From: Verrucomicrobiota bacterium
GTDB taxonomy: Bacteria > Verrucomicrobiota > Verrucomicrobiia > Verrucomicrobiales > DEV007
Reading direction: 5' to 3'
Assembly (NCBI GenBank): GCA_024277195.1
Contig: JAJRVS010000113.1
Location: 1 to 64,000 of the forward strand
DNA length: 64,000 nt
The notes under the pieces are model-generated. The model saw only the letters and a program-made list of their open reading frames with translations. It searched no databases and was not told the origin of the DNA. Shown one piece after another: positions 1 through 31,574 of the stretch. The stretch's first letter is position 1. Each line of letters starts with the position of its first letter. Made by a program: the position numbers and the translations under genes.

Positions 1-416
1 CCGGTTCCAATTTCGTTGGTAGAACTGTTGCCCAAACGACCACCACCTGTTTCAGGGAAAAGATAAGCGGTGTATCCCAACCACGCTTCAACTGATCCAA
101 AATCGTGACTCACAGTAGCATACAAGTCCAGCTCATCTGTGTGCAGCTGGTTTTGTCCGCGTCCACTTGTTGGGTTGCCGTACCATGCGCCGATCGCCAA
201 TGGTGTGCCTTCAATGGCGTAGTCAATTTGTGCAGTGACTTGATTGTCGCCGTAGTTAACACCTCTGAAGATGTAGCTGGTGTTGTATCCAACTGCAACT
301 GATGCGTTATCTTCTTCAACAACGATCACCTCTTCGATGACTGCTTTGTCTCCTGCGTTGGCATTCACTAATGTGAAGGCCCCGATAGCTGTAATGATTA
401 GAGTTTTGATTTTCAT
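1..416 (-). CDS. Outer-membrane porin, TorF-like family (3' end outside window)
   Basis: Minus-strand frame open from the ATG at 416 to the window edge, 138 codons. It begins with a signal peptide (MKIKTLIITAIGAFTLVNANA) and continues with alternating beta-strand segments such as YNTSYIFRGVNYGDNQ and AWYGNPTSGRGQ, then DLYATVSHDFGSVEAW. The early YIFRG(V/I) strand after the leader is typical of the TorF-like putative porins common in Gram-negative bacteria, including Verrucomicrobia. A clear Shine-Dalgarno (AAGGAG, complement of 427-432) fixes the start. Expected role: passive diffusion of small solutes through the outer membrane. The C-terminal strands are outside the window, so barrel size cannot be judged. 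Family call is by recognition, not by search. Confidence 0.7.
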   Translation of the reverse strand, partial: MKIKTLIITAIGAFTLVNANAGDKAVIEEVIVVEEDNASVAVGYNTSYIFRGVNYGDNQVTAQIDYAIEGTPLAIGAWYGNPTSGRGQNQLHTDELDLYATVSHDFGSVEAWLGYTAYLFPETGGGRLGNSSTNEIGT

Positions 417-716: not shown

Positions 717-953
717 TTAAAGCAAATCTTCGCTTAAAACAGTCTGTTGCTCTGTCTTGGAAAGAGCTTTGGCCTGTTTTACGACCAATTCACGATCAGC
801 CTCAAAGTGATAGGCATGGCAATTGGGGCACAAGTGAACTTTGGCCGCAACGATAGAATCACATCCGCAGCACACCTTGTATTGCGCCGGGTTACGGACA
901 ATTCGGCGAGCGCGTTTAGCTCTTTCTATCAATGTAGGATCTTCCTGTTCCAT
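717..953 (-). CDS. Small zinc-ribbon protein
   Basis: A 78-residue protein starting MEQEDPTLIERAKRARR. Two CxxC knuckles (KVCCGCDS about residues 22-27 and HLCPNCHAYH about 36-42) are spaced as in a rubredoxin-like zinc ribbon, followed by a charged helical tail. Such one-ribbon proteins are often paralogues of ribosomal-protein ribbons or nucleic-acid-associated factors. The specific role is unknown. The frame stays open upstream to 1058, but that extension is low-complexity and the ATG at 953 leaves a compact ribbon. It lies downstream of rpsT on the same strand, separated from it by a terminator, so it is probably transcribed separately. Confidence 0.65.
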   Translation of the reverse strand: MEQEDPTLIERAKRARRIVRNPAQYKVCCGCDSIVAAKVHLCPNCHAYHFEADRELVVKQAKALSKTEQQTVLSEDLL

Positions 954-1175: not shown

Positions 1176-1439
1176 TTAAGCCAGCGTGCTGACTTGTTTG
1201 TGCAATTTGCTTTTGCTTCTGGCAGCCGCGTTAGGATGGAGCACCTTGATTTTTGCTGCTTTATCTACTGTAGAATTAAAGGTGTTCAGGGTGGTAGTGG
1301 CCAAACTTTTATCGCCCGCTTCAACAGCATCCTGCACTTGTTTACGAATGGTTTTCACTTTCGTTTTTAGTGCGCGGTTGCGTTCTGTAATACGTAATGA
1401 TTGACGAGCACGTTTTGCAGCTGATGCGATATTGGCCAT
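1176..1439 (-). CDS. rpsT: 30S ribosomal protein S20
   Basis: An 87-residue, strongly basic, all-helical protein beginning MANIASAAKRARQS. This is the diagnostic S20 N-terminus (MANI.SA.KR), and the body carries the usual KT..KTIRK and NAAARSKSKLHK segments. S20 binds 16S rRNA helices early in 30S assembly. Length matches the family (about 85-90 residues). It appears monocistronic, with its own intrinsic terminator downstream and a divergent secreted-protein gene upstream. S20 synthesis is commonly autoregulated, but no site for this can be seen here. Confidence 0.97.
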   Translation of the reverse strand: MANIASAAKRARQSLRITERNRALKTKVKTIRKQVQDAVEAGDKSLATTTLNTFNSTVDKAAKIKVLHPNAAARSKSKLHKQVSTLA

Positions 1440-1621
1440 AATTCTTTAGGTAAATGCTCACTGCTCCTTTGGCAGCGGGCGGGAAATTAGCGAAAATTTA
1501 AAGCTTGTCAAGCAGGACTTCGTAATTGAAAACGATCCATAACAAGAGCACGCCTCTGATAAACCGGCAAATTTTAAGGCTTGATCCCAAGGGAAGCTCT
1601 CAGCATAGTCTCAGTCCTGCT

Positions 1622-2557
1622 ATGATAAATACACAAATTCCGCCCCTTCGATCTACTAGCGCACTGCTTGTGACCCTCTTTTTTCTAGCGCTTTGCCCTT
1701 CGAGAGCGGAAGACACCAACAAAAAAGCACCTACTACAGAACTTGTTGCCGCCCCAGCCGAAATCAACCCGGACACCAAGCGTGGCACCATCGTTCTAAA
1801 TGCCGCTAGCGGGAAATATGAAGAAAAAAACCATTTTGCCTATTGGAACTGGGACTTTGAAACGCAGCGGCCCGGTACCTATGAAGTGCGCATCATCTAC
1901 ACTTCTGTTCGGCTCAAGAAAATGGGCCTACAATTCCGTCTTGATGACAGCACCGTTTTGAAAGCCTATATTTACCGCAGCCGTAAACCCGATGCCGCTG
2001 ATGAATACGTGGTCGGTCGTGCCCGGATCCCCGACAAAGGCAAACACCACATCACCCTGTTAACCGCTGATAAATCACAAGCGCCTCCTTTTTCCATCAA
2101 GGGAGTCAAACTGGTCCCAGTTCAAGAAAGTGAAGAACAACTTGGTCAGGGCCTGAATGGAGCCATCGAACTGCATGCCCGGGATGCGATCACCCATTCC
2201 GAACAAATGCAGTATGAGCAAAAAGCTGAAAAAGATTGTCTCGGTGTCTGGGTTCATCCGCAGGACTGGGCGGAATGGAATTTTCATATCTCCATGCCCG
2301 GCAAATTCAAAGTTTCTCTGGTGCATGGCTGCGGAGATAAAAGTGGCGGCAGTGAAGTAGCTCTGCTCACTACGGATGACCAGATTTTGAAGTTCAATGT
2401 GAAAGAAACCGGAGGTTTTCAAAAATGGGAAACCCTGGAACTCGGAACTATCAGCTTTAACGAAGAGGGCTCTCACCGTGTGGCCATCCAACCCCTGAGT
2501 AAACCCGGAGTGGCGGTAATGGATATCCGCAAGCTGGTTCTCACCCCGGTGAAATAA
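1622..2557 (+). CDS. Secreted protein with two beta-sandwich (CBM/DUF5077-like) modules
   Basis: A 311-residue protein from the ATG at 1622. A signal peptide (hydrophobic core SALLVTLFFLALCPSRAED) is followed by two similar modules, about residues 45-170 and 190-310. Each has the pattern 'W.W.....PG.Y.V.....C/R.........' seen in carbohydrate-binding-like N-terminal modules of PVC sulfatases and fucosidases (WNWDFETQRPGTYEVRI and WAEWNFHISMPGKFKVSL). No catalytic motif is visible. A TTG 96 bases upstream is in frame, but it would put 32 polar residues ahead of the leader, so the ATG is preferred. Likely a periplasmic or surface carbohydrate-binding protein. The substrate cannot be told. The next gene is aroC, 69 bases on, with no functional link. 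Confidence 0.7.
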   Translation: MINTQIPPLRSTSALLVTLFFLALCPSRAEDTNKKAPTTELVAAPAEINPDTKRGTIVLNAASGKYEEKNHFAYWNWDFETQRPGTYEVRIIYTSVRLKKMGLQFRLDDSTVLKAYIYRSRKPDAADEYVVGRARIPDKGKHHITLLTADKSQAPPFSIKGVKLVPVQESEEQLGQGLNGAIELHARDAITHSEQMQYEQKAEKDCLGVWVHPQDWAEWNFHISMPGKFKVSLVHGCGDKSGGSEVALLTTDDQILKFNVKETGGFQKWETLELGTISFNEEGSHRVAIQPLSKPGVAVMDIRKLVLTPVK

Positions 2558-20537: not shown

Positions 20538-20787
20538 TAGGCTAGGACATAGCTAGCCTAGTCAAACGCGAGTCACAAAGGCGACTCATTCGTTTGACCT
20601 ACAAATCAGGAAAACTGTTCTGCGAAGATCATGGAACAATAATGTAGGTAATATGATTGATGTCAAGCTGGTAAAAAGCCGCCGCAACATCCGCTACCAT
20701 CAATAAATGGTAGATCGCATGGGTTCGAACCTTGGTTCGAGCGCCTTTGACCGCGAAGCGGTTCACAATCCCCAGATCAAAGATCTG
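20538..20787. repeat. Cluster of short perfect hairpins
   Basis: Four inverted repeats in about 250 bases: TAGGCTAG/CTAGCCTA (20538-20545, 20553-20560); GTCAAACG plus GAGTC / GACTC plus CGTTTGAC (20561-20598); CTACCAT/ATGGTAG (20694-20700, 20707-20713); and CAGATC/GATCTG (20773-20787), with the palindrome GGTTCGAACC at 20722-20731. No coding frame is convincing. This is either structured RNA upstream of the PcfJ gene or debris of mobile repeats leading into the element at 20820. Confidence 0.6.
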
Positions 20788-20819
20788 CCCTCTGCACAGA
20801 CGGGATCAATCCTTGCTAG

Positions 20820-21076
20820 GCTACCATCGGGGGTATCACACATCGACATCATTTCGCCCTTTCAGGGCTTGGCAATAAAACCCATTTACCCCCAGCACTT
20901 CGCACCGGGCTATCACATTTTGTCCTTACAGGACAGTTGGCTTTCATCTCTTTTGCACCAACGGTGCTCAATGAGATAGCCCAGTGCGAAGCGCTGGGTA
21001 AAAAATCCAACTCTCCCAGTCCTGCAAAGGGCAAAACGCATAACAGTCAGCAGCTTAACTATTTTGTCTTACACCC
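20820..21076. repeat. Foldback repeat element, copy A
   Basis: About 257 bases that can fold into a long closing stem. The outer arms are 20856-20872 with 21015-21032. The inner 24-base arms are 20891-20914 with 20975-20998 (only two non-Watson-Crick positions, both G-U capable). The inner stem encloses two perfect small hairpins, TGTCC/GGACA (20921-20935) and GCACC/GGTGC (20955-20967). It ends in TTAACTATTTTGTCTTACACCC. A second copy lies at 31087-31374. This copy lacks the 5' terminal repeat that copy B has. Short frames over it are by-products of the stems. Confidence 0.85.
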
Positions 21077-30960: not shown

Positions 30961-31446
30961 TTAACCCAAGTTTCCCTATAAATCGCTAAATTGCCAAAAT
31001 TGAGCATATCCCTACTCATAACTCGTTAATAATAAACGGTAGTTTTTCTAAAACAGCGATGTAGTGCCTTTCGCGGTTTTATAGTGGGGTGCAGGACAAA
31101 AAAGTTAGCCATTGGTTATTGAAAGCTACCTTATCACACCTCAATCTCATGTCGCCCGTTCAGGGCTGGCAATAAAAACGATTTAACACCGGCGCTCCGC
31201 ACCGGGCTATCACATTTTGTCCTTACAGGACAGTTTGCTTTCATCTCTTTTGCACCAACGGTGCTCAATGAGATAGCCCAGTAGCGAAGCGCTGGGTAAA
31301 AAATCCAACTCTCCCAGTCCTGCAAAGGGCAAAACGCATAGAGGCTCGCAGATTAACTATTTTGTCTTACACCCTTTGTAATGTCTCAGGAAATATTTTC
31401 GTTGATTATCAACAAGTTATATTTTAAAAAGGGAAACTTGGGTTAA
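30961..31446. mobile_element. Inverted-repeat-bounded element (MITE-like or IS remnant)
   Basis: The left end TTAACCCAAGTTTCCCT (30961-30977) and right end AGGGAAACTTGGGTTAA (31430-31446) are exact 17-base inverted repeats, 486 bases apart overall. There is no transposase frame inside. Most of the interior is occupied by the second foldback element (31087-31374), so the original insert was about 200 bases. Both ends finish in TTAA, but no direct target duplication beyond this could be identified. Confidence 0.65.
31087..31374. mobile_element. Foldback repeat element, copy B, with terminal inverted repeats
   Basis: A 288-base element closely similar to 20820-21076 over its central 230 bases (same closing stem with 3' arm 31272-31296, same TGTCC/GGACA and GCACC/GGTGC hairpins, same 3' tail). 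It has imperfect terminal inverted repeats of about 21 bases: GGGTGCAGGACAAAAAAGTT from 31087, and the complement of TTAACTATTTTGTCTTACAC ending at 31374. No transposase is present. It looks like a non-autonomous element or a mobile structured-RNA repeat, nested in the 30961-31446 element. Confidence 0.8.
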
Positions 31447-31541: not shown

Positions 31542-31574
31542 AATAGCTTGAAGCAAACCTTGGTTCAAGCTATT
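31542..31574. repeat. Perfect 11-base inverted repeat
   Basis: AATAGCTTGAA (31542-31552) and TTCAAGCTATT (31564-31574) surround an 11-base centre containing AACCTTGG. It resembles in sequence the GGTTCGAACCTTGGTTCGA stretch at 20722. It lies in the gene-free stretch between the elements and the LVIVD gene. Confidence 0.6.

Follow-up and report, generated by a model that had tools for sequence, protein, structure and literature searches.

The two long foldback repeats in the window, the 64,000-nucleotide stretch of DNA analyzed here, are very probably composite elements in which a MITE of the ISKra4 family forms the outside and a REPIN-like pair of three-hairpin units from a TnpA-Y1 system forms the inside. 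The spread of these copies is ordinary and their cargo is unusual, and the link between the unit and a subclass of Y1 transposases is the broader result. The preliminary description had reported two copies of a foldback family, and both repeats are real (Table 1). They align without gaps at 91 to 93% identity over 116 and 91 nt, and each of the small apical hairpins, GTCCTTACAGGAC and GCACCAACGGTGC, has the same sequence in both copies, as had been claimed; the two hairpins differ from each other. The right end first given for the shorter copy, 21076, was correct, but its start was not: homology begins at 20834, and the 14 bases at 20820-20833 are unrelated sequence outside the element, which at this site has no left terminal repeat. 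Folding was far better than for dinucleotide shuffles in both cases (RNA fold of 31087-31374, z = -7.4; DNA fold of 20820-21076, z = -6.3). Misannotation of such elements as short proteins had also been anticipated, and ORF 20707-20979 indeed overlaps the copy at 20834-21076. A near-palindrome, GCAAACCTTGGTTCAAGC, occurs at window positions 20725-20742 and 31553-31570, less than 200 bp from each copy, where 0.15 occurrences would be expected by chance in the window.

Table 1. Features of the two composite MITE copies, in window coordinates
Feature	Position	Strand	Basis or remark
Complete composite MITE copy, 288-bp foldback	31087..31374	+	aligned with ∼40 genomic copies; both terminal repeats
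Left target-site duplication TTTATAGTG	31078..31086	.	7/9 match to right flank TTTGTAATG; family makes 9-bp duplications
Right target-site duplication TTTGTAATG	31375..31383	.	
Left ISKra4-type terminal repeat GGGTGCAGGACAAAAAAGTTA	31087..31107	+	exact pattern match; same as ends of ISKra4 element in related genus
Right ISKra4-type terminal repeat, GGGTGTAAGACAAAATAGTTA on - strand	31354..31374	-	near-identical to 3' end of host ISKra4 transposase copy
Left three-hairpin unit (H3'-H2'-H1' on + strand)	31150..31237	-	covariance model R1, 84.6 bits, E 1.6e-15
Right three-hairpin unit (H1-H2-H3)	31246..31334	+	covariance model R1, 83.5 bits, E 2.7e-15
Apical hairpin H1' GTCCT-TAC-AGGAC, left unit	31219..31231	.	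read from sequence; helix 1 of unit
Apical hairpin H1 GCACC-AAC-GGTGC, right unit	31252..31264	.	read from sequence; helix 1 of unit
5'-truncated composite MITE copy, left terminal repeat and first 45 positions absent	20834..21076	+	
Left three-hairpin unit of truncated copy	20852..20940	-	R1, 84.8 bits, E 1.4e-15
Right three-hairpin unit of truncated copy	20949..21036	+	R1, 93.2 bits, E 2.6e-17
Right ISKra4-type terminal repeat GGGTGTAAGACAAAATAGTTA of truncated copy	21056..21076	-	exact pattern match

Based on their ends, their duplications, and a resident transposase gene, the repeats are a non-autonomous MITE of the ISKra4 (prokaryotic Mutator-like) family. We make this assignment because the copies combine ISKra4 ends with 9-bp duplications and share those ends with elements that encode an ISKra4 transposase. 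Copies in the host genome are 283 to 332 bp long, contain no transposase, and have inverted terminal repeats of 21 bp that start with GGGTGCAGGACAAAA and fit GGGTGYARGACAAAAWAGTTA. They number at least ∼40 to 45 (∼40 among the BLAST matches listed, plus truncated ones recognized by their ends). BLAST also recovered ∼14 copies in a sister species, represented by a Verrucomicrobiota MAG, and no copy in a third species of the genus; an exact search with the MITE core across 84,980 genomes matched the sister genome only, and IMG/VR held no exact match to the core. Among 31 copies with both ends, the 9-bp flanks match at 68%, versus 26% between the flanks of different copies, and flanks of 6, 7, 8, 10, or 11 bp match at just 27 to 34%, which places the duplication signal at length 9 only. 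Several sister-species copies are surrounded by perfect 9-bp duplications. This length fits the 8- to 9-bp target duplications reported for prokaryotic Mutator-like elements (PMC3942029).

A search for GGGTGCAGGACAAAAAAGTTA ends in 75 genomes of the family returned one inverted pair, 1.86 kb apart, in a related genus (locus L098). This element of ∼1.86 kb has MITE-type ends (20 bp at the left, full at the right) and a 9-bp duplication, ATAGCGTCA, and encodes a 441-aa ISKra4 transposase (NF033572, 247.6 bits versus a cutoff of 205). ISKra4 transposase fragments (54 to 57% identity) are present at two places in the host. One of them (C260) terminates in GTCAGAGCAGCTTAACTTTTTTGTCTTACACCC, nearly the same as the MITE right end, and the other (C45), which is cut by the contig end, scores 163 bits, under the NF033572 cutoff of 205. 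Counting against the composite reading, we found no ISKra4 copy with both ends in the host, whose single long transposase locus has no left end. An IS256 parent, suggested by the end sequence, was rejected; PF00872 was unmatched in the genome, and ISKra4 was found instead. A short ORF lies directly upstream of the ISKra4 transposase at two loci (L098:617-1045, DUF6788; L113:558-983, similar by eye) and may be an accessory gene conserved within this branch of ISKra4 elements. A different MITE, with the same ISKra4 ends but another hairpin-rich interior, is centered at loci L119 and L123 in another family of the order, with target duplication GGATAGTTG at the latter.

Arm positions that differ between copies with pairing mostly kept, some of them capable of G-U pairing, had been taken to indicate selection on RNA or cruciform structure. 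Among the MITE copies, this claim fails. Across 94 pairs predicted for the long foldback on the consensus fold, in 29 host-genome copies, 3 cells of ∼237 departures were double-changed with pairing kept. One-sided G-U and A-C changes were equally frequent in these copies (36 versus 41 distinct events), and the RNAalifold covariation term for the MITE copies was -0.17. With neither covariation nor wobble bias, selection on a long-stem RNA among the copies is ruled out, and the copies are eroding versions of a near-perfect foldback, as expected of a MITE. A single copy (L073:897-1182) accounts for most double-sided changes in the apical hairpins; its apical loop, which lies between the inner arms, is in inverted orientation, and this suggests recombination between the arms. 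Two other copies (L074:1487-1683 and L079:1568-1759) have no apical loop between the inner arms, and a short hairpin remains. A 30-nt GC-rich insert is found in the small outer hairpin H3 on the left arm of L084, L085, L087, L090, and L091, on the right arm of L086 and L089, and also in L025, L042, and L079; its occurrence on either arm resembles what flipping of the interior, or conversion between the arms, would produce.

At a deeper level, the inner half-unit is constrained, and here the claim of structural selection holds. Positions 45-247 of the MITE hold two mutually inverted copies of an 88-nt unit with three hairpins, arranged as H1, a conserved ATGAGATAG stretch, H2, a ∼20-nt spacer, and H3. 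Short, weak BLAST matches to the MITE interior among relatives in the order, without ISKra4 ends, turned out to be this unit. In a MAFFT alignment of 33 units that was not fitted to structure, 95% of stem cells pair and 12 of the 18 pairs are double-changed. These changes amount to 63 cells, compared with 17 ± 3 after shuffling (0/500), and the signal is abolished when the pairing partner is slid. Exceptions to pairing comprise 24 G-T and 4 A-C, events that are not independent.

We searched for the unit with two covariance models, R1, trained on MITE half-units only, and R2, trained on Verrucomicrobiota only; calibration was shortened for both, which makes their E values approximate. The host list holds 96 unit matches, 83 inside MITE copies and 13 outside; of the 42 pairs of adjacent units counted in the host, MITE copies account for 38. 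For two host pairs without ends (L188 and L191), alignment with the MITE is confined to positions 45-247; these pairs, the closest to the MITE among those lacking ends, could be old MITE copies minus their ends rather than ancestors. R2 units occur in at least 73 of 289 Verrucomicrobiota genomes and at least 59 of 153 genera, both lower bounds with few candidates scored per genome. Such elements also appear to give rise widely to spurious short ORFs in these genomes. The end-less pairs and the REPIN-like interior are what would be expected if the copies had been spread by a Y1 transposase as REPINs, with the ISKra4-like ends incidental. We consider this extremely unlikely, however, given how many of the adjacent pairs lie in MITE copies and, above all, that duplications of exactly 9 bp adjoin the ISKra4-type ends, which largely refutes it. 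Target duplications are not known from HUH/Y1 transposition.

The R1 unit also flanks IS200/RAYT-like TnpA-Y1 genes on both sides, in inverted orientation. In the sister species, units at 174-264 (+) and 728-816 (-) bracket a Y1 ORF at 269-721 (E about 1e-11 and 1e-12) and stand 4 to 7 nt from the start and stop of the gene. Units recognized by R1 likewise surround a Y1 gene in another family (ORF 1468-1935 of L151) and a truncated one in the host (L158/L202). When loci were selected solely by their unit score, 4 of 29 had a Y1 gene or its remnant directly beside the unit, versus 0 of 73 control loci, and 3 of those 4 genes or remnants sit between two units. On a plasmid of Persicobacter (Bacteroidota), R2 units at 1375-1466 (+) and 1955-2046 (-) bracket a Y1 gene (E 2e-7 and 4e-11). 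Two Bernardetia Y1 genes are not bracketed by the unit, which counts against the composite reading. Hairpins of the AGCTGCGTAGCTGCG type stand on both sides of a subclass 1.2-like Y1 gene of Bernardetia (L238:1382-1457 and 1996-2068) and are possibly another unit type. A further point against this reading is that units are oriented -,+ in MITE pairs and +,- around genes; thus, deletion of the gene from a REPtron would not by itself give the MITE pair.

An ordinary ISKra4 MITE, with interior hairpins that are accidental or left over from foldback building, would need nothing else to account for the ends, the 9-bp duplications, and the absent covariation among copies. The preliminary description had named an ordinary MITE as the alternative to structural selection, and this is right for the spread of the copies, as the 9-bp duplications and ISKra4 ends attest, but not for their unusual interior cargo. 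As a full explanation we regard it as very unlikely, since the unit scores strongly without ISKra4 ends in those 73 of 289 Verrucomicrobiota genomes, brackets Y1 transposase genes, and has stems that covary. Covariation of the unit, together with the excess of G-T over A-C exceptions (24 versus 4), suggests strand-specific pairing selection and, with the very stable fold, would suit a structured RNA (a small RNA, riboregulator, or mRNA stabilizer) kept by selection on a host RNA fold. This reading is nonetheless very improbable: the MITE copies decay uncompensated, Rfam 15 run over the window gave only tRNA above the gathering score and left the MITE copies unmatched, and unit position is tied to Y1 transposase genes. 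Single-stranded DNA recognized by an HUH enzyme predicts the same signature. The likely selector of unit structure is the single-strand-specific TnpA-Y1 transposase, whose genes lie between such units; a cellular role for the RNA is not needed.

All three Y1 proteins pass the IS200/IS605 model NF033573, and one of the three matches the REP-associated model NF047646, at 19 bits versus a cutoff of 80, below the score for membership. In alignment against table 1 of PMC6006769, the proteins are about 148 to 152 aa long and bear the motifs DH[IV]H, WQ, and Y---Q--HH; the L221 protein has NHVH in place of DH[IV]H. Judged from these residues, the unit-bracketed Y1 genes match TnpA-Y1 subclass 1.2 in their motifs. 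Quentin et al. 2018 (PMC6006769) gave this subclass the entry "REP: no," described it as lacking terminal structures in general, and reported it as largely confined to Cyanobacteria and Bacteroidetes. Full-length copies of the Y1 gene are few per genome, and phage records contained no close relative of it. The host also has more than 20 proteins, most of 250 to 420 aa, with a partial Y1_Tnp match (model positions 6-62), which form an expanded family (e.g., at C5, C17, C95, and C250).

In the composite reading that we favor, an ISKra4 (Mutator-like DDE) transposase would recognize the MITE terminal repeats and insert the element with a 9-bp duplication; the copies in the host and its sister species, which belong to one genus, would have arisen in this way. 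The Y1 transposase, in analogy to RAYTs acting on REP sequences, would recognize the hairpins in single-stranded form, cut next to them, and disperse pairs of units. One such pair may then have ended up between ISKra4 ends, and the captured pair would have been amplified again by the ISKra4 transposase. The unit is apparently an undescribed REP type, carried as a REPIN-like pair by an ordinary MITE. More broadly, we think it moderately likely that TnpA-Y1 subclass 1.2 is a REP-like mobile system that extends from Verrucomicrobiota into Bacteroidota, with the 88-nt three-hairpin unit as its substrate, and that inverted pairs of this unit can be captured by a DDE transposon and reamplified as MITEs. 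The unit is a candidate substrate for a Y1 transposase group that had none in the published survey, and its covariance model can be run on any genome. Two unrelated transposition mechanisms would be stacked within one short element.

IS200/IS605 insertion sequences have asymmetric subterminal hairpins, not inverted flanking units, and multiple near-identical gene copies; here, the flanking units are inverted, and full-length gene copies are few per genome. The MITE resembles ISKra4 insertion sequences (p-MULT 4, Mutator-like; Genome Biol Evol 2014, PMC3942029) and IS-derived bacterial MITEs in its terminal inverted repeats with terminal G/C and its 9-bp duplications, and it shares its ends with a resident ISKra4 transposase gene. 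Unlike these insertion sequences, it is noncoding, and its interior is a putatively captured palindromic-unit pair, not IS sequence. In the literature searched, we found no description of an ISKra4 MITE. With REPIN/REP-RAYT systems (Bertels & Rainey 2011, PMC3116915; BMC Genomics 2010, PMC2817692), the elements share an inverted palindromic-unit pair, a unit that also flanks a Y1 (HUH) transposase gene, dispersed copies, and compensatory stem changes. REP-RAYT units, however, are single 20- to 40-nt hairpins with a GTAG foot, whereas the unit here is 88 nt with three hairpins, and ATAG or variants such as ACAG and AAAG, rather than a GTAG (GT[AG]G) foot, precede stem H2. In addition, the Y1 protein is far below the REP_Tyr_transpos cutoff, and the MITE copies would have spread via another transposase. 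TIRYT/TIRtron elements, as far as the text compared here describes them (BMC Genomics 2013, PMC3733652), are similar in placing a RAYT-like gene between partly self-complementary inverted repeats that occur elsewhere as dimers or clusters; they differ in that the examples given there are mainly from other phyla. Finally, the proteins agree with TnpA-Y1 subclass 1.2 (PMC6006769) in their length and in all three motifs and differ in that the genes described here are from Verrucomicrobiota and are bracketed by structured units.
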